Below are positions 2,349 to 42,172 of a stretch of 64,000 nt of DNA, one piece after another. Where the stretch lies: NCBI RefSeq assembly GCF_003247215.1, contig NZ_QKAP01000073.1:1-64000 (forward strand). Reading direction: 5' to 3'. Origin of the DNA: Malonomonas rubra. Lineage in GTDB: Bacteria; Desulfobacterota; Desulfuromonadia; Desulfuromonadales; Geopsychrobacteraceae. Position 1 is the first letter of the stretch, and the number at the start of each line of letters is the position of its first letter. The notes below the pieces were generated by a model. That model had not been told where the DNA came from. It was given only the letters and a program-made list of their open reading frames with translations, and made no database searches. The position numbers and the translations under genes were made by a program.

Positions 2349-3389
2349 ATGAAAAATGTACTTCGATCACTGTTGATGTGGCTCTGTACACTACTGGTCT
2401 TCCTGTTCCCACTCGGAGCAATTGCGATAGTTTCCGAAGAGTGCCAGGACTGCCACGGTGATATGGATACGGTTGGCGAAGAGCTGTTTATCAATGTCGG
2501 CGTTTATGATAATACGGCGCACGCGGAAATGGGTTGTCTCTCTTGCCATGAATCCGTTGGGGAAGAGCATCCGGACGACGGCGTAGAAGTTTCCAAGGCC
2601 AACTGCCTCGATTGTCACGCAGAGATAGAGGAAGAACATCAGGCCAGTGCGCATGGCGGAAATGCGACCTGTGGCGATTGCCATAACCCGCACCGGGTTC
2701 ACGGACTGACCGAGGTGTCCGGCTACGATTTGAATCAGCAGTGCGCCAACTGCCATCAAAACAGCAGCGTCGTTGAAAGTCACAGCGAATGGTTGCCGCA
2801 GGCCGATCTGCACGTTGCCAAGCTACCCTGCATCTCTTGCCATACGGCATCGGAAGATTACGTAATCATCCTCTACATTATCCAGCAGGAGAGTGAGGCT
2901 GTGGAGGGCGACTTCGAGCTGTCCGATCATGCTGACCTGCAGACGCTGGCTGGCGACAGAAACATTCAAAGCCTGATCGATTTGAACCAGGACAATTTTG
3001 TATCTCTGGCGGAACTGCGCACCTTCAACCGAAACCCGGGCTATGAAAAGATGCGGCTGGAAGCCACCTTGACGCCGAAAATCGTCAGCCACTCGGTACA
3101 AACGCTCGATAATCGCTGGGACTGCAGCTTCTGCCACACGTCCGGAACGGAAAAGATGCAGACCAGTTTTATCGCGCTACCGAACGCCGAAGGAACTTTC
3201 TCCAGGATCGAAGTCGAGCGGGGAGCGATTCTCAAGGCTCTGAACGGCACCCCCGACTTCTATATGATGGGAACCACCCGCAGCGCTTCGTTGAACATCA
3301 TCGGCCTGATGATTATCATCGGCGGCCTGTTGATGCCGATCGGGCACGGTACCCTGCGCTTCTTGACCCGTAAAAATAGACAACACTAA
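2349..3389 (+). CDS. Seven-heme c-type cytochrome with C-terminal TM anchor (CbcA-like)
   Basis: Signal peptide; seven CXXCH motifs (CQDCH, CLSCH, CLDCH, CGDCH, CANCH, CISCH, CSFCH); C-terminal hydrophobic helix. Confidence 0.9.
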   Translation: MKNVLRSLLMWLCTLLVFLFPLGAIAIVSEECQDCHGDMDTVGEELFINVGVYDNTAHAEMGCLSCHESVGEEHPDDGVEVSKANCLDCHAEIEEEHQASAHGGNATCGDCHNPHRVHGLTEVSGYDLNQQCANCHQNSSVVESHSEWLPQADLHVAKLPCISCHTASEDYVIILYIIQQESEAVEGDFELSDHADLQTLAGDRNIQSLIDLNQDNFVSLAELRTFNRNPGYEKMRLEATLTPKIVSHSVQTLDNRWDCSFCHTSGTEKMQTSFIALPNAEGTFSRIEVERGAILKALNGTPDFYMMGTTRSASLNIIGLMIIIGGLLMPIGHGTLRFLTRKNRQH

Positions 3390-4084
3390 TGGGGGATATC
3401 GTCATGGCTGAAAAGAAAATGATTTATCTGCAACCGACCCCGGTTCGCATCTGGCATTGGCTGAACGCTTTGGGAATCGTAACGCTCTGCGCAACCGGCG
3501 CTCAGATCCGTTTTCCCGAATACGTTACCTTGTTCAGTGAGTATAAGTCAGCGATTATCCTGCACAACACAGCAGGATTCGTGGTCGCGATCTCTTTTTC
3601 GATCTGGTTCTTCTACTATGCCTTTGTTGCCCGGAGTATGGGCAAGATTTATGTGCCGAAAGCAGACGACATCAAGGTGGGGATTTTCCGACAGGCAAAA
3701 TTTTACTTCTTGACCTACTTCCTTGGCTGGGACAACCCGCACCATCCGACTCCAGAAGACAAGTTCAACCCACTGCAGAAATCAGCTTATCTGGCGATCA
3801 TGTTTGTGCTGGTTCCGCTGGTTAGCTTGACGGGAATTCTGCTGACCAACGTCGATCCACTGCGTGGTTTGATCATTATGATGGGTGGGCTGAAAATCTT
3901 GATGGGCTTGCACTTCTTGCTCGCCTGCTCTCTCTGCGCGTTTCTCTTTACCCATATTTATCTGGCAACCCTGGGGCACACCCCCTTTGCCCATTTCAAG
4001 CCAATGTGGACCGGCTGGGAAGAGGATTTGGAAGAGCATTTGGAAGAGCATTTGGAAGAGCATCATTCCCCGGTGGCTCATTAG
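3389..4084 (+). CDS. b-type cytochrome of the Ni/Fe-hydrogenase cytochrome b family (CbcB-like)
   Basis: PVRIWHWLNALGIVTLCATG motif, His-bearing TM helices, overlaps upstream stop. Confidence 0.85.
   Translation: MGDIVMAEKKMIYLQPTPVRIWHWLNALGIVTLCATGAQIRFPEYVTLFSEYKSAIILHNTAGFVVAISFSIWFFYYAFVARSMGKIYVPKADDIKVGIFRQAKFYFLTYFLGWDNPHHPTPEDKFNPLQKSAYLAIMFVLVPLVSLTGILLTNVDPLRGLIIMMGGLKILMGLHFLLACSLCAFLFTHIYLATLGHTPFAHFKPMWTGWEEDLEEHLEEHLEEHHSPVAH
4019..4066 (+). repeat. Four-unit 12-bp tandem repeat GAAGAG(C/G)ATTTG encoding (EE[HD]L)n at the C-terminus of the cytochrome b
   Basis: gaagaggatttg gaagagcatttg gaagagcatttg gaagagcatcat. Confidence 0.95.
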
Positions 4085-4138
4085 GCTGGTAACAATAAAC
4101 CAGGGAAGCCTATTACCTTAAGCAGAGTAGTGGAGAAG

Positions 4139-4630
4139 ATGACGGATTTGAAAAAACAGGAGCTGACAGGCCAACTGGGCGAATCAGGTTGCGCAGCGCA
4201 TACCAAAAATTGGCAGTCGCTGTCGCAGCGTGGCCTATGGCAGGTCCTCCTGTTTTTTCTGATCAGCATCGGGGCGTTGCAGTTCCGTGAAATTTATCTG
4301 CTTGATCTTGTCCCGGCCGACTTCCGGGAGCTGCGTAATTTTGTGCCACCGATATATCAGATCACGTTTGTTTTGGCTATCTACGGTTTTTGGGTAACGC
4401 TGAGTACTTTGGCCAAAATGACTAACTATGCTGTGCCGGTAGTCAAATGGAGTCAGCTCGGATATCGGAGTTCCTTCTACCTTTTTTATGCCTTTTCCGG
4501 GGGGTTGGACAACCATTTTATGGTGGTGTTTTATCTCGTCATCTTTCTTTATGGTGTCGAGCAGGGTCATGTCTGGTTTTATGGTAGTTGGCTGGAACAT
4601 CGCGAAAAGGAGCTTTGGGGTGAACAATAG
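4139..4630 (+). CDS. Multi-pass membrane protein, last gene of the cytochrome cluster
   Basis: Long ORF with several hydrophobic helices; start 4139 (ATG) or 4130 (GTG). Confidence 0.65.
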   Translation: MTDLKKQELTGQLGESGCAAHTKNWQSLSQRGLWQVLLFFLISIGALQFREIYLLDLVPADFRELRNFVPPIYQITFVLAIYGFWVTLSTLAKMTNYAVPVVKWSQLGYRSSFYLFYAFSGGLDNHFMVVFYLVIFLYGVEQGHVWFYGSWLEHREKELWGEQ

Positions 4631-8619: not shown

Positions 8620-9744
8620 ATGCAGGAGCAGCAATCGGTTTTTAACGAGGAGATTGTCTCCGAAAAGATTTTAGAGAAATGGGAATCGCGCGGCGTTAGC
8701 CGGCGGAGTTTTTTAAAGTTCTGTTCAGTTTTGACTGCCAGTCTGGCCTTGCCAGCCAGCATGATGGGGCAGATTGCCGAGGCGATGGAGGCAGATAATA
8801 GGCCTCCAGTTATTTGGGTTGAGTTCCAGGGTTGCACCGGCGATTCAGAAGCTTTCCTGCGGGCCAATCAGCCGACTGCAGCCGATGTAATCCTCGACTA
8901 TCTGTCGATCGATTACCATGAAACCATCATGGCTGCAGCCGGGCATCAGGCGGAAGAGGCCAAGCATCAGACCCTCGAAAAATACAAAGGCAAATATATT
9001 GCCGTGGTCGAAGGTTCGATCCCTATGGCTGACAATGGCGTTTACTGCACGATCGGCGGTGACTCGGCAGTGAATATCGCGCGTCAGGTTTGCGGCAACG
9101 CCGCCGCGACCATTGCGGTCGGCTCCTGTTCTTCTTTCGGCGGCATCCCGGCGGCCAATCCGAACCCGACTGGCGCTGTATCGGTATCGGAAGCGGTGCC
9201 GGGAGCGACGGTGCTGAACATGCCCGGTTGCCCGCTGAATGCGGAAAACCTGACCGCTGCCATCGTCCATTTCCTGACTTTCAACCGCTTGCCGGCTACC
9301 GATCAGTTCGGGCGGCCGAAGTTCGCCTACGGCAAGCGGATTCATGACAACTGCGAGCGTCGGGGACATTTCGATGCCGGGCAGTATGCGGAAAGCTTCG
9401 GTGATCCCGGCCATCGCCAAGGCTGGTGCCTGTATAAACTGGGCTGTAAGGGGCCAGAAACCTTCCATAACTGTCCGACGGTTCGTTACAACGAGGGAAC
9501 CAGCTGGCCGATTCAGTCCGGACACGGCTGTCTCGGCTGTAGCGAACCATATTTCTGGGACAGCATGACTCCATTCTACAAGCGACTGCCGCAGGTGGCT
9601 GGCTTCGGCATTGAATCGACGGTCGACAAGATCGGTCTTGGTCTGGTTGCGGCGACAGGGGTTGCCTTTGCGGCCCATGGTGTTGCCAGTGCTTTGCGCA
9701 GGGGTGACAAGCTGGAAGCCGATCAAGTGGTCAAGGAGGACTAA
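8620..9744 (+). CDS. hyaS: [NiFe] hydrogenase small subunit (group 1, HyaS-like)
   Basis: Tat motif SRRSFLKF; GCTGDSEA, GSCSSFGG, MPGCPLN, CLGCSEP motifs; start 8620 preceded by AAAGGAGG. Confidence 0.9.
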   Translation: MQEQQSVFNEEIVSEKILEKWESRGVSRRSFLKFCSVLTASLALPASMMGQIAEAMEADNRPPVIWVEFQGCTGDSEAFLRANQPTAADVILDYLSIDYHETIMAAAGHQAEEAKHQTLEKYKGKYIAVVEGSIPMADNGVYCTIGGDSAVNIARQVCGNAAATIAVGSCSSFGGIPAANPNPTGAVSVSEAVPGATVLNMPGCPLNAENLTAAIVHFLTFNRLPATDQFGRPKFAYGKRIHDNCERRGHFDAGQYAESFGDPGHRQGWCLYKLGCKGPETFHNCPTVRYNEGTSWPIQSGHGCLGCSEPYFWDSMTPFYKRLPQVAGFGIESTVDKIGLGLVAATGVAFAAHGVASALRRGDKLEADQVVKED

Positions 9745-9747
9745 GCC

Positions 9748-11460
9748 ATGGCAAAAAAAATCGTTGTCGATCCGATCACACGCATCGAAGGGCACTTGCG
9801 GATTGAAGCGCAGGTCGAAGGGGGGAAGATCACCAATGCCTGGAGTTCCTCAACCGCTTTTCGCGGCATCGAAACCATCCTCAAAGGGCGCGACCCGCGC
9901 GACGCCCATCATTTCACGCAGCGATTCTGCGGGGTCTGTACCACCGTGCATTCGTTGGCCAGTATCCGTGCCGTGGAAGATGCGCTGCAGATCCAGATCC
10001 CGGACAATGCCCGTTTGATCCGCAATCTGATCATGGCGGTTCAGAATATCCAAGATCATGTCATTCACTTTTATCACTTGCATGCTCTTGACTGGGTCGA
10101 TGTGGTTAGCGCCCTCTCGGCCGATCCGAAGAAGACCGCCAGCCTGGCACAGTCGATTTCTGACTGGCCGCTGTCGAGCGCGAACTATTTCCAGGGAATA
10201 CAGCAGCGGGTAAAGGCATTTGTCGGCACCGGGCGGCTCGGCCCTTTCGCCAATGCTTACTGGGGGCATAGCGCCTATAAGTTGCCAGCTGAGGCGAATC
10301 TGATGGGGGTGGCCCATTACCTAGAAGCGCTCGAGTGGCAGAAGGATATTATCCGGATTCATGCGATCCTCGGTTCGAAAAATCCGCACCCGCAAACGTT
10401 CCTGGTCGGTGGTATGTCGATGCCGGTCGATCCGGACAGCCAGAACGCCATCAACGCGGACAAGATAGCTCTGATTGGCAAGCTGCTGAAAAAGGCGCGA
10501 ACCTTTGTCGAGCAGGTCTATATCCCCGATCTGCTGGCGGTCGCTTCTTTTTATAAAGACTGGGCCGCGATCGGCGCTGGCGTCGGCAACTATCTGAGCT
10601 ACGGTGATTTTCCGATGGATAACGGCGGCGGAACCGACAATCTGTATTTTCCGCGCGGCATCATTATGGGCAAGGATCTAGCCAACTTGATGCCGCTGGA
10701 CGAAGCAAAAATCAGCGAATATGTTACCCACAGCTGGTACAGCTACAGCGATGGGGATGATAAAGGGAAACATCCTTATCTTGGCGAAACCAACCACAAC
10801 TATACCGGGCCGCAGCCACCGTATGAGTATCTGGATACTGACAACAAATACAGCTGGGTCAAGGCGCCTCGTTACATGGATCAGCCGATGGAAGTCGGCC
10901 CGTTGGCGCGGGTGCTGGTCGCTTATGCCAGCGGCAATACCGACGCCAAGGGAGCGGTAGATTTTGTCCTCAAGCAGTTGGGGATTGGTCCGGCGGCACT
11001 CTTTTCGACCCTCGGACGGACCGCCGCGCGCGGGATCGATTGCTTGATGCTGGCGCAAAAGAGCGAACTCTGGCTGCAGCAGCTGGCGGACAATATGGGG
11101 CGCGGGGTGCTCGAAGTGCACAACAGTGAAAAGTGGGATCCGGCAACCTGGCCGAAAGAGGCCCAAGGGTTCGGATATCACGAAGCTCCGCGCGGTGGCC
11201 TGGGGCACTGGATCCGAATTGAAAACGGGGCGATCAAAAACTATCAGGCGGTGGTTCCCTCAACCTGGAACGCAGGGCCGCGCGACCCGCGCGGCCAGCT
11301 GGGGCCGTACGAAGCCGCTTTGATCGATACCCCGATTGCTGATGAGAGGCAGCCGTTGGAAATTTTGCGCACCATCCATTCCTTCGACCCTTGTTTGGCC
11401 TGCGCGGTCCATCTGCTCGATGGCCAGGGGAGCGAGATCATCCGGGTGAGAGCACTATAA
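9748..11460 (+). CDS. hyaL: [NiFe] hydrogenase large subunit
   Basis: RFCGVCTTVHS N-terminal and DPCLACAVH C-terminal active-site motifs with a cleavable tail. Confidence 0.95.
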   Translation: MAKKIVVDPITRIEGHLRIEAQVEGGKITNAWSSSTAFRGIETILKGRDPRDAHHFTQRFCGVCTTVHSLASIRAVEDALQIQIPDNARLIRNLIMAVQNIQDHVIHFYHLHALDWVDVVSALSADPKKTASLAQSISDWPLSSANYFQGIQQRVKAFVGTGRLGPFANAYWGHSAYKLPAEANLMGVAHYLEALEWQKDIIRIHAILGSKNPHPQTFLVGGMSMPVDPDSQNAINADKIALIGKLLKKARTFVEQVYIPDLLAVASFYKDWAAIGAGVGNYLSYGDFPMDNGGGTDNLYFPRGIIMGKDLANLMPLDEAKISEYVTHSWYSYSDGDDKGKHPYLGETNHNYTGPQPPYEYLDTDNKYSWVKAPRYMDQPMEVGPLARVLVAYASGNTDAKGAVDFVLKQLGIGPAALFSTLGRTAARGIDCLMLAQKSELWLQQLADNMGRGVLEVHNSEKWDPATWPKEAQGFGYHEAPRGGLGHWIRIENGAIKNYQAVVPSTWNAGPRDPRGQLGPYEAALIDTPIADERQPLEILRTIHSFDPCLACAVHLLDGQGSEIIRVRAL

Positions 11461-11475: not shown

Positions 11476-12129
11476 ATGCTACAGATACGTTATGTCTGGG
11501 AACTGCCGGTCCGATTCACCCACTGGATCAATGCCATTTGCGTCTTGGTCCTCTCCCTGACTGGTTTTTATATCGGCCACCCCTTTTACACCGCGAGCAG
11601 TACGGCGGAATATATTATGGGCTGGAACCGGTTCATCCATTTCCTGTTTGGCTACCTCTTTCTGGTGTCGATGCTGGTTCGGATTTACTGGTTTATCGTT
11701 GGGAACCATCATTCCTCCTGGCGGATGTTTTTCCCCTGGGCGACCGAGAAAGGGCGTAAGAGCGCCTTGACCTTTTTTCGATACTATACCTTCAGTGGTC
11801 CGAAGCTACCCTACGAGGTCGGTCATAATCCGTTGGCCTGCATGGCGTATGCCGCTGTTTTTTCACTTTTTATCATTCAGATTGTCAGCGGGTTCACGCT
11901 ATATGCCCAGTCACAACCGGCTGGCTTCTGGTTTGCCTCGCTCGGTTGGCTGACCTCCCTGATCGATTTGCAGACCTTGCGACTGGTGCATCATGCTGTG
12001 ATGTGGTTGCTGGTCGGGTTTTTTATCAATCACCTCTACAGTGCCTGGTTGATGGATGTCAAAGAGATGAACGGGGTGATGAGCAGTATCTTCAGCGGCT
12101 ATAAGTTTGTCGAGAAAGAAGATCTCTGA
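11476..12129 (+). CDS. hyaB: Ni/Fe-hydrogenase b-type cytochrome subunit
   Basis: PVRFTHWINAICVLVLSLTGFYIG; position in operon. Confidence 0.9.
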   Translation: MLQIRYVWELPVRFTHWINAICVLVLSLTGFYIGHPFYTASSTAEYIMGWNRFIHFLFGYLFLVSMLVRIYWFIVGNHHSSWRMFFPWATEKGRKSALTFFRYYTFSGPKLPYEVGHNPLACMAYAAVFSLFIIQIVSGFTLYAQSQPAGFWFASLGWLTSLIDLQTLRLVHHAVMWLLVGFFINHLYSAWLMDVKEMNGVMSSIFSGYKFVEKEDL

Positions 12130-12608
12130 TGACGGTTTTGGTGCTTGGGTTAGGAAACCTGCTGATGACCGACGATGCCCTCGGTGGTCGTATGATCGCC
12201 GAACTAGAAAAGAGCTACCGGTTTCCGCAGGAGGTTCAATTGTTGGATGGAGGCACCCTGGGGCTTGACCTGCTTCCCTATCTTGAAGGGGTCGACAAGC
12301 TGCTGGTGATCGACGCCCTGCGGATGGGGGCTCAAGCAGGGGAACTGTTCCGCCTGGAAGGAGAAGAGGTACCGCGTGCCTTTGCCAACAAACTGTCTGT
12401 GCACCAGATGGGGTTGCAGGACTTGCTGGCAGTCGCTGAACTGCAGGGGCATTTGCCAGAGCAGTTGGTTGTCTGGGGAATCCAGGCGGAGTCGGTGGAG
12501 GTCGGGATGGAGTTGAGTCCGGCTGTTTCCGGCAGCGTTGCTGAACTTATGCTTTCTGTTGTCAGAGAGCTGCAAGGCTGGGGAGTCGTTTTAAAGCAGG
12601 CGGCTTAA
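12129..12608 (+). CDS. hyaP: Hydrogenase maturation endopeptidase (HyaD/HybD family)
   Basis: VLGLGNLLMTDDALGGRMI, LLDGGTLGLDLL. Confidence 0.9.
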   Translation: MTVLVLGLGNLLMTDDALGGRMIAELEKSYRFPQEVQLLDGGTLGLDLLPYLEGVDKLLVIDALRMGAQAGELFRLEGEEVPRAFANKLSVHQMGLQDLLAVAELQGHLPEQLVVWGIQAESVEVGMELSPAVSGSVAELMLSVVRELQGWGVVLKQAA

Positions 12609-36007: not shown

Positions 36008-38095
36008 TCAGACAATTTCATCCTGAATCCGGTTGTCGAAAATCCGCTGACTCTTTTTCTCGGAGCGAGGCAGGCTGGCGTAATCGACCAGTTCGACCTC
36101 TACAGACACCAGCAGCTGTTTCTTGATTTGATATTTCACCTCGTGGATCAGTTCCGGGCTGCGCTTGGCATCGACCCCATCGGCCCGCTCCACCAGTAGG
36201 TGCATCTGGCCGCGTTCCGATTCGTCGCGAGTCAAGTGGATTTGGTACTCGGAACCGAGTCCCGGTATCGCCGACAGGATAGTGTCGATGCTGCTTGGGT
36301 AGATATTGACGCCGCGGAACTTGATGGTGTCGTCGGAGCGCCCCTTGATCCGGGAGTGGCGGGGCAAGGGGTTGCCGCAACTGCAGGTGCCGGGGATGAT
36401 GCGGGTAATGTCGCGGGTGCGGTAGCGGATCAGCGGTGCGCCTTCTTTGCAGAGACTGGTGACGACCATTTCACCCCATTCCCCTTCCGGTACCGGTTGC
36501 AAGGTCTCCGGATCGAGGATTTCCAAGATGTAGTAATCCCCCCAGTAGTGGATGCAGTCATGATCGGAACATTCGATCCCGGTGCCTGGGCCGTATAGTT
36601 CGGTCAACCCGGTGATGTCGAACAGTTCGGCGCCGCCGAACAGCGCAGAGATTTTTTGCCGCATCGAACGACTGGAGCGTTCCGAGCCGTATATAATCTT
36701 GTTGACGGCGATCTTATCGACGATCCCCCGCTTGTGGATCTCCTCTGCCATCAACAATGCCATCGAGGCGGTGGAACAGAAAACGGTCGACTGGAAGTCG
36801 AGCAAAAACTGGATCTGCATGTCGATGTTGCCGGGACCGACCGGCACAGCCATGGCACCTATTTTCTCACAGCCAAGCTGGAATCCCATGCCAGCTGTCC
36901 AGACCCCGTAACCGACGGCAATCTGGATTCTGTCGAGCGGGGTTACGCCAGCCATCTGGTAGCAGCGGGCAAAGAAATCGGTCCAGTCGTCCAGATCCTT
37001 CTGGGTGTAGCAGAGGACTTTACGCTTGCCGGTGGTACCCGATGACGCATGCACCCGCACGATCTGCTCAAACGGCACGGCGCGCAGCGGGAACGGGTAG
37101 CCTTGGCGCAGGTCATCGGCGGTGGTGAACGGCAGCTTCAGCAGGTCATCGAGAGACAGAATCATCTCGGGGGTGATGTCTGCCGCATCAAACCGTTCCC
37201 GGTATTCGCTCGAACCTTCGTAGGCGTGGCGGACGGTCCATTGCAACCCTTTGAGCTGATGAGCTTTGAGTTCTGCCTCAGAGGTAAAGTCGGGCATAAA
37301 TTTCTGTTGACGCATATCAGGTTTCTCCAAACGGATATTGGTCAGGCCGGCAGCTCCGAGTCGACTTGCAGCCGGGTTTTCCTGGCTGGCGGCACCGAGA
37401 AAGGCGGAGCGCAGAATCGGGTCGTTCAGCAACTCTTCGCTTTTACCCTGCTCGACAATCTTGCCGTTGGCTAGCAGATAGGCTCGGTCAGAGCCGGACA
37501 GTGCGCGGGCAGCGTTCTGCTCTACCAGCAGGATGGTGGTGCCGGCGCGGTTCAGTTGCCGAATGATAGCAAATATTTCGTCGGTGATTAGGGGGGCGAT
37601 GCCGAGACTCGGTTCGTCGAGCAGCAGCAGATGAGGTTTGGCCATCAGCGCGCGGCCGATTGCCATCATCTGCTGCTCGCCGCCGGAAAGGGTGCCGGCC
37701 AGCTGCTGGTGGCGCTCCTTGAGCTTCGGGAAGCGGGAAAAAACCTCTTCGATCCGGCTGGCTTCCTCTGCTTTCGAAAGTTTCAGCGGAATGGCGCCAA
37801 GTTGCAGGTTCTCCCGTACTGACAGTTCGGGGAACACTTCCCTCCCTTCCGGGGAGAGGGCCAGCCCCAGACGCACCATTTTGGCCGGACTGCTGCCGGT
37901 AACCGGCTGGCCGTCGAGCAGGATCTCGCCACCGGTTGGTTTGACCAGTCCCATCAGGCACTTGAGCAGTGTGCTTTTGCCCGCGCCGTTGGCCCCGACC
38001 AGCGCCACCGTTTCGCCGGCCGCAACTTCGAGATCGACGCCGAACAGGGCCTGGGCTGGGCCGTAGTGGGCGGATAAGCTGCTGATTTTCAGCAT
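36008..38095 (-). CDS. LivF-type ABC ATPase fused in frame to phenylacetate-CoA ligase (PaaK-like)
   Basis: N-part: GANGAGKSTLLK, LSGGEQQM, LLLLDEPS; C-part: VHASSGTTGKRK, TELYGPGTGIEC, YRTRDIT, IKGRSDDTIKFRGVNIYPSSID; single 695-codon ORF. Confidence 0.85.
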   Translation of the reverse strand: MLKISSLSAHYGPAQALFGVDLEVAAGETVALVGANGAGKSTLLKCLMGLVKPTGGEILLDGQPVTGSSPAKMVRLGLALSPEGREVFPELSVRENLQLGAIPLKLSKAEEASRIEEVFSRFPKLKERHQQLAGTLSGGEQQMMAIGRALMAKPHLLLLDEPSLGIAPLITDEIFAIIRQLNRAGTTILLVEQNAARALSGSDRAYLLANGKIVEQGKSEELLNDPILRSAFLGAASQENPAASRLGAAGLTNIRLEKPDMRQQKFMPDFTSEAELKAHQLKGLQWTVRHAYEGSSEYRERFDAADITPEMILSLDDLLKLPFTTADDLRQGYPFPLRAVPFEQIVRVHASSGTTGKRKVLCYTQKDLDDWTDFFARCYQMAGVTPLDRIQIAVGYGVWTAGMGFQLGCEKIGAMAVPVGPGNIDMQIQFLLDFQSTVFCSTASMALLMAEEIHKRGIVDKIAVNKIIYGSERSSRSMRQKISALFGGAELFDITGLTELYGPGTGIECSDHDCIHYWGDYYILEILDPETLQPVPEGEWGEMVVTSLCKEGAPLIRYRTRDITRIIPGTCSCGNPLPRHSRIKGRSDDTIKFRGVNIYPSSIDTILSAIPGLGSEYQIHLTRDESERGQMHLLVERADGVDAKRSPELIHEVKYQIKKQLLVSVEVELVDYASLPRSEKKSQRIFDNRIQDEIV

Positions 38096-39851: not shown

Positions 39852-40352
39852 TTACCCGTTCAGCCCCTGCTTAAAGGCTTCCAGGTTCTGTTCGACGAAC
39901 TTCTGTGGTGCCAACTGTCTTATCGCCTTTTCACACTCCTCTGATGTACAGAACAGTGCTTGCCGCTTCACCGCAAATCCGAGCAGCACCAGATTGGAGA
40001 GAACCGGATTTCCGATCAAGCGGGCAATGCCGGCGGCATCAATCCGTTCACCTTCGCCGGTTTGTTCAGCGCTGATAAATAGTTTTCCATTCTCTTTCAG
40101 CAACCCTTTGTGCACCGGCAGGTTGGCATCCCACAGTAACAGACCGATATCAGCCTGTCCGGCGCGGATCAAAGGGCTGGCGAAGTTACCTATTTTAATC
40201 GTTGAGAGAACTGTTCCTCCCCGCTGGGCCATACCGTGGGTCTCCGAGGTCAGCACGGGGATGCCGCGGTTTACTGCCACCTGAGCAATGACCCGGGTGA
40301 GAAACAGCACGCCCTGACCACCTATTCCGCTGACGATGATCTGCTGTTTCAT
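39852..40352 (-). CDS. iorB: Indolepyruvate:ferredoxin oxidoreductase subunit beta
   Basis: MKQQIIVSGIGGQGVLFLTRVIAQ; ETHGMAQRGG; start 40352. Confidence 0.9.
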   Translation of the reverse strand: MKQQIIVSGIGGQGVLFLTRVIAQVAVNRGIPVLTSETHGMAQRGGTVLSTIKIGNFASPLIRAGQADIGLLLWDANLPVHKGLLKENGKLFISAEQTGEGERIDAAGIARLIGNPVLSNLVLLGFAVKRQALFCTSEECEKAIRQLAPQKFVEQNLEAFKQGLNG

Positions 40353-42172
40353 CCGTTTTTCTCCTTGATTATGGCATCGACCGGGCAGACTGGGATGCAG
40401 GTGCCGCAGCCGATACAGCGGTCCTGATCGATCAGCGCAACCTTGTTCTGTTCGTCGAAGATCAGTGCTGGACATTCGAAGGCATTGGTGCACTTGCGGC
40501 AGCCGATGCACTTGTCATTGATCTGGATCAGCGTCGCCTCTTGGGATTTACGCACGCTTGGGTCCATAATGCAGCCGTGGCGTGAAATCAACACTGCAAC
40601 GCCCCCTTCCGGGCTGCGGATATAGTCGTCTGCCTGCTGCAATAACTTTTCGAACTGCTCGTTGTCGTACGGATCGCAGGTTTCGAGGAACTCGACCCCA
40701 CTCGCCTTGACCAGCTGTTCTATGGCGATCGACTTGGTCGGTTTGCCGCCAGCAGCGATGCCCATGTGCGGCACCGGCTGACCGCCGGTCATGGCAGTGG
40801 TGGCGTTGTCGAGGATCACCACAATGATGCGGGCCTGCTGCACCACGGCGTTCACCAGCGCCGGAATGCCGGCGTGGAAGAAGGTCGAGTCGCCGATGGT
40901 GACAACAACGGTCGGGAAGTCACCATCTTGGGCGTATGCTTGGTAAAAGCCTGCCCCTTGGCTAATGCAGGCTCCCATGCAGTGGACGGTGTTGACTGCG
41001 CCGAGGTTCATCCCCAAAGTGTAGCAGCCGATATCGGACGGGAAGATCCCTTGCGGGAAGCACTTCTTGATGCTGTAGAAAGCGGCACGATGCGGACAGC
41101 CGGGGCAGAGCGAAGGACGTTGCCCGCGCCGCTCATCTGGCAGTGCCACAGGTTGGTCAAGGTTGAGAAAATCAGCCAGCACCTGGTGGAGGATATCAGG
41201 CAGCAATTCCCCTTCCCGCGGGACATGGCCGGTCTGCTTGCCGACCGCGCCTGGATGAGCCAGCTGCAGCTCAATCACCGGGTAGGTCTCTTCCAGCACC
41301 AGCACCCGGTCGTAATCGCGTTTGAGTGTTTCGCTGAAGGAGGGATTCAAGGGGTAGGGCATCAGCACCTGGTAAAGGTCAATTTTTCCGGTTAGTCCCA
41401 ATTCGTCGAGCAGGTCGACCAGATTGCTGAAGACGATGCCGGAAGCGACCAGCGCGGTGCGGGGCTGGCTGTTATCGCTGGGGGTCAGCCGCGGTTGCCA
41501 GTCCGGTTCCTGAGCGATCTTTTCCAGGTTTGCGTTCAGTTTGCGGTGCAGCGCAGGCAGAAACGCCGGGGTTGCGGCCCAGCGGGTTGGGTCGCGCTGA
41601 AAATCAGCGCTACGGCCCAGCTTGAGCGGCTCCCCCAAGGTGACGTTCTGCCGCGAGTGGCAGATTCGGGTGGTCGGGCGCAGCACGATGTTCAGTTCAT
41701 ATTTTTCCGACAATTCGAAAGCGGCCGGGATCAAGACCTTTGCTTCCGCGGGGCTGGCCGGATCGATGACCGGTACCCGCCCCTGCAGGCAGAACAGGCG
41801 AGTATCCTGCTCATTCTGGGAGCTGTGCGGTCCCGGATCGTCAGCGACGATGGTCAGCATGCCGCCTTTAACGCCGATATAAGCGGTGCGCATGAACGGG
41901 TCGGCGGCGACGTTGAGGCCAACCTGCTTCATTACTGCGACCGAACGCTTACCGCTGTAACTACCAGCCAACGCAACTTCAAAGGCAATCTTCTCGTTGA
42001 TCGACCACTCGACATGCAATGGTTCGATGGCCCGGTCCCGAGAATCGATAACCGTCTGCAGGATCTCGGTCGACGGGGTGCCGGGGTATGCCGCGGCGAT
42101 CTGGCAGCCGGCTTCAATCAGTCCTTGGCCGACCGCTTCGTTCCCCATCAATAGTTTGACTTTTTCACTCAT
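40349..42172 (-). CDS. iorA: Indolepyruvate:ferredoxin oxidoreductase subunit alpha
   Basis: GNEAVGQGLIEAG; TPP domain GDSTFFHAGIPALVNAV; two ferredoxin motifs at C-terminus. Confidence 0.95.
   Translation of the reverse strand: MSEKVKLLMGNEAVGQGLIEAGCQIAAAYPGTPSTEILQTVIDSRDRAIEPLHVEWSINEKIAFEVALAGSYSGKRSVAVMKQVGLNVAADPFMRTAYIGVKGGMLTIVADDPGPHSSQNEQDTRLFCLQGRVPVIDPASPAEAKVLIPAAFELSEKYELNIVLRPTTRICHSRQNVTLGEPLKLGRSADFQRDPTRWAATPAFLPALHRKLNANLEKIAQEPDWQPRLTPSDNSQPRTALVASGIVFSNLVDLLDELGLTGKIDLYQVLMPYPLNPSFSETLKRDYDRVLVLEETYPVIELQLAHPGAVGKQTGHVPREGELLPDILHQVLADFLNLDQPVALPDERRGQRPSLCPGCPHRAAFYSIKKCFPQGIFPSDIGCYTLGMNLGAVNTVHCMGACISQGAGFYQAYAQDGDFPTVVVTIGDSTFFHAGIPALVNAVVQQARIIVVILDNATTAMTGGQPVPHMGIAAGGKPTKSIAIEQLVKASGVEFLETCDPYDNEQFEKLLQQADDYIRSPEGGVAVLISRHGCIMDPSVRKSQEATLIQINDKCIGCRKCTNAFECPALIFDEQNKVALIDQDRCIGCGTCIPVCPVDAIIKEKNG

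Follow-up and report, generated by a model that had tools for sequence, protein, structure and literature searches.

In the window, i.e. the whole 64,000-nt stretch of Malonomonas rubra DNA that was analysed, four genes of the + strand form a single [NiFe] hydrogenase operon with the order S-L-B-P (small subunit, large subunit, b-type cytochrome, maturation protease). The first gene, hyaS (positions 8620 to 9744), begins with an ATG at 8620 preceded by a ribosome-binding-like ggagg and encodes a small subunit of 374 aa (TIGR00391, 473.6 bits; TAT_signal_seq match) that carries the twin-arginine export motif SRRSFLK (8698 to 8718; TIGR01409 match). Its C-terminal membrane anchor corresponds to a helix at residues 331-360 in an AlphaFold model whose mean pLDDT is 57.9 and which is weak past residue 237. 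The gene is followed by hyaL (9748 to 11460; PF00374, 787.6 bits), which encodes a large subunit with intact nickel-ligand motifs CGVC and DPCLACxxH, by hyaB (11476 to 12129; TIGR02125, 162.8 bits, above cut-off) encoding the cytochrome membrane subunit, and by the protease gene hyaP (12129 to 12608; TIGR00072 and TIGR00140, both above cut-off). Of the loci of 80 relatives, 61 keep this order, and several of the others stop at contig edges; the order is also that of Geobacter Hya, a likeness already pointed out in a preliminary description of this DNA and confirmed here by the operon itself and by its Geobacter-type relatives. In Deferribacter, the group 1f cluster has been described as comprising a small, a large and a third subunit plus a protease (PMC6896113). 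The hya loci of the relatives often share two flanking genes as well, one upstream for an epimerase-like protein and one downstream for PEP carboxykinase.

The substitution noted in hyaS lies at 8833 to 8844, where the codons TGC ACC GGC GAT specify C72, T73, G74 and D75. The first residue, C72 (8833 to 8835), is the first cysteine of the proximal cluster and is invariant wherever aligned small subunits have a residue at that position, while D75 (GAT, 8842 to 8844) occupies the position of the second Cys in the proximal-cluster motif CxGC. In phmmer alignments to solved small subunits (HoxK variants and E. coli Hyd-2), D75 aligned to the last Cys of a CTGC or CTCC motif, so that the Asp reported in the preliminary description in place of a proximal-cluster Cys is indeed found at these exact coordinates. 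All other cluster ligands are intact, as had also been proposed: the proximal C170 of the GSC motif (9127 to 9129) and C204 of the PGC motif (9229 to 9231) are both invariant in the alignment, and the distal (H242, C245, C270 and C276) and medial (C285, C304 and C307) ligands are all present between 9343 and 9540. The alignment further indicates that hyaS lacks the two additional cysteines that characterise the O2-tolerant [4Fe-3S] cluster, having G74 and G175 where HoxK has Cys at both positions; in this respect it differs from the six-Cys enzymes of group 1d. The same genome contains two further small-subunit genes, both with Cys at the site equivalent to D75.

Among the best 80 relatives in named genomes, 73 have Asp and seven have Asn in the D75 column, and none has Cys. 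These relatives belong to Desulfuromonadales, Geobacter, Geomonas, Geotalea, Geothermobacter, Deferribacteraceae, Nitrospirota and Chloroflexi, G. sulfurreducens being outside the set. Such a distribution over independent genomes rules out a sequencing error, a chance event or a private mutation as the origin of D75. In a wider set of ca. 190 distinct small subunits, drawn from genomes and plasmids and in which the window gene is counted twice, the column is occupied by Asp in 105 cases, Cys in 57 and Asn in 29, with two gaps; no residue other than these three occurs there, and the other three proximal cysteines are invariant. The codons used are GAT or GAC for Asp and AAC or AAT for Asn, which are one base apart. 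Separate occurrences of Asn were found in Sulfurimonas/Sulfurovum, in Sulfobacillus and in group 2a-like proteins.

The history of the site was addressed with a tree of 116 representative small subunits from which the D75 site itself was omitted. In this tree, hyaS groups with group 1f small subunits of the Geobacter and Deferribacter lineages, within a clade of 61 sequences (SH-aLRT 99) of which 36 have Asp, 22 Asn and three Cys. The 58 Asp/Asn sequences all fall on one side of a branch whose support is not decisive (SH-aLRT 78.9). About 10 state changes are needed at the site within the clade, with repeated switches between Asp and Asn. The tree was built rapidly and some of its branches are long, and the exact number of origins is uncertain. 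The three Cys-type small subunits (L190, L191 and L152) adjoin the Asp/Asn sequences of the group 1f clade and, having kept the Cys, would make useful natural comparators. Judging from the tree and the named relatives, the Asp/Asn clade is consistent with HydDB group 1f (Hya in Geobacter, Hyo in Deferribacter). Forcing the Asp sequences of group 1h to join the Asp/Asn sequences of this clade was rejected (AU p = 2.6e-14), which excludes common descent of the Asp with that of group 1h and indicates separate, convergent origins in groups 1f and 1h. A possible coupling of D75 with position 206, which is Pro in most Cys-type sequences and never in Asp/Asn ones, was also considered but is not claimed here because the three adjoining Cys-type sequences lack this Pro as well and only ca. 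5 independent pairs are available.

Comparison with known systems places hyaS next to Geobacter Hya, in which the D75 position is likewise Asp or Asn and from which, as from group 1f in general, no distinguishing feature was found. Relatives in Desulfuromonas, Geobacter, Geomonas, Geothermobacter, Deferribacteraceae and Nitrospirota are 59-84% identical. The substitution has already been described in the literature and is a known trait, not a new one: Yonemoto 2014 (PMC4070099) lists G. metalloreducens as having Asp for Cys at the second proximal position, and according to Mohammadi 2016 the site is Asn or Asp in group 1f enzymes from Roseiflexus, Geobacter and Frankia (PMC5364354). The former paper also shows that an engineered HynS C81D of Alteromonas macleodii, with Asp instead of Cys as the corresponding ligand, remains active in H2 production, although this is an artificial change in a Cys-type enzyme, unlike the natural Asp of hyaS.

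We thus favour, with a probability of ca. 0.82, the view that the operon encodes an ordinary membrane-bound H2-uptake enzyme of the group 1f HyaSLBP type, in which Asp is the normal residue of the subgroup and probably the ligand of the fourth iron in the proximal cluster. That Asp could be normal here had been mentioned as an option in the preliminary description, and the 80 relatives, the wider survey of the column and the tree all agree with it. Given its parts, the enzyme would be exported by the Tat system and anchored through the C-terminal helix of the small subunit and the b-type cytochrome, and electrons from periplasmic H2 would be passed to the quinone pool. The proximal cluster is most likely of the [4Fe-4S] type, with C72, C170 and C204 as its cysteine ligands and D75 bound to its fourth iron, as is the Asp of group 1h, and such ligation would be expected to shift the potential of the cluster. 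We infer this bond from sequence comparisons since no structure or spectroscopic study of any group 1f enzyme was found in the literature. When O2 appears, electrons from the enzyme may be passed on to terminal oxidases, and the cytochrome bd and two heme-copper oxidases encoded in the genome make O2 removal driven by H2 possible.

Other readings of the site were weighed against this one. A different cysteine could have taken over the fourth ligand position, a situation that the preliminary description had regarded as incompatible with its proposal; one candidate is C158 (9091 to 9093), which occurs in 46 of the 58 Asp/Asn sequences of the clade versus two of 32 Cys-type group 1 sequences. It is missing, however, from the remaining 12 Asp/Asn sequences sampled, and in the AlphaFold model, whose confidence is moderate in this area, it ends a helix (150-158) ahead of a strand (163-167), while C72, C170 and C204 follow the opposite ends of parallel strands, which puts C158 on the far edge of the sheet. 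A role of this residue as ligand is therefore very improbable. The nature of the cluster itself leaves more room, and the main alternative to an Asp-ligated [4Fe-4S] cluster is a [3Fe-4S] or 3Fe/4Fe-switching one that has a weak fourth ligand or none, with a raised potential and a bias to H2 uptake as the result. The repeated exchange of Asp for Asn within group 1f suggests just such a weak, replaceable ligand, and a labile fourth iron is known from Asp-ligated ferredoxin clusters, as reviewed in PMC4070099. Likewise, three [3Fe-4S] clusters have been assigned in Huc, a group 2a enzyme, partly on the basis of which residue stands fourth at each cluster (PMC10017518), and two 2a-like proteins of our set (L034 and L171) carry Asn in the D75 column. 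The likeness of hyaS to Huc (PDB 7UTD), all of whose clusters are [3Fe-4S], is limited to a non-Cys residue in this column, Asn in the 2a-like proteins but Asp in hyaS, which is distant from group 2a in the tree and does not belong to it. As the Asp-bearing enzyme of group 1h is reported to retain a [4Fe-4S] cluster coordinated by this Asp (PMC7174314), we consider a [3Fe-4S] or switching cluster possible but clearly the less probable option.

The preliminary description had also raised O2 tolerance by analogy with group 1h, in which the Asp would be an adaptation making the enzyme O2-tolerant or O2-insensitive. The alignment to group 1h did place the two Asp in the same column, C. necator HofK (PDB 5AA5) having CDGD where hyaS has CTGD, and this Asp is cited among the mechanisms by which group 1h enzymes cope with O2 (PMC7174314); Geobacter Hya has moreover been connected with defence against oxidative stress (Tremblay and Lovley 2012, as cited in later papers). 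A group 1h protein is, however, only ca. 27% identical to hyaS, which is not a member of that group, and besides its separate origin the Asp has repeatedly been swapped for Asn within the clade of hyaS. The nearest tested case, a Methylacidimicrobium enzyme with Asn instead of Asp at the site, contradicts a link with tolerance in that its hydrogenase activity was lost above 0.01% O2 in preliminary tests (PMC5364354). At two positions of the large subunit, which we take to be gas-channel positions, hyaL has the CGVC and HFYHL of ordinary group 1 enzymes, whereas in groups 1h and 2a the first reads CGIC and the second is different too. Since the O2-tolerant HoxG also has CGVC and HFYHL at the two positions checked, the residues of hyaL argue only against a narrowing of the group 1h type. 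In addition, members of the clade are mostly from anaerobic lineages such as Desulfuromonadales. Overall, an adaptation to O2 appears unlikely and tolerance by analogy with group 1h finds no support; as far as sequence data go, the Asp does not by itself show O2 tolerance. Asp at this proximal ligand would mark the group 1f subgroup, not oxygen tolerance, which corrects a tempting inference.

More speculatively, the second ligand of the proximal cluster in [NiFe] hydrogenases might act as an evolutionary switch among Cys, Asp and Asn. In group 1f, one change away from Cys would then have been followed by single-base Asp/Asn flips converting an Asp-bound [4Fe-4S] cluster with a labile iron into a Huc-like [3Fe-4S] cluster and back, thereby tuning the potential or the response to O2. 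We hold this idea to be doubtful, yet if true it would make group 1f a natural experiment for a proximal-ligand switch. The survey may be useful in showing a ligand confined to Cys, Asp and Asn, where Asp arose separately in groups 1f and 1h and was repeatedly exchanged with Asn; with this pattern, group 1f enzymes lend themselves readily to comparative work on the role of the fourth proximal ligand.

Finally, other features were detected in the window. Upstream of the operon, a multiheme c-type cytochrome (2349 to 4630, + strand) contains an EF-hand-like stretch, DLNQDNFVSLAEL; after it come a cytochrome b561-type protein and a membrane ORF of 166 aa with no Pfam or NCBIfam match. Further downstream, near an IorA gene (40349 to 42172), an ORF of 695 aa (36008 to 38095, - strand) combines, judging from its scores, a LivF-type ABC transporter ATPase (residues 1-245) with a phenylacetate-CoA ligase-like domain (residues 271-689). 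This fusion is real and conserved because full-length copies with 80-92% identity occur in numerous genomes within the same family.
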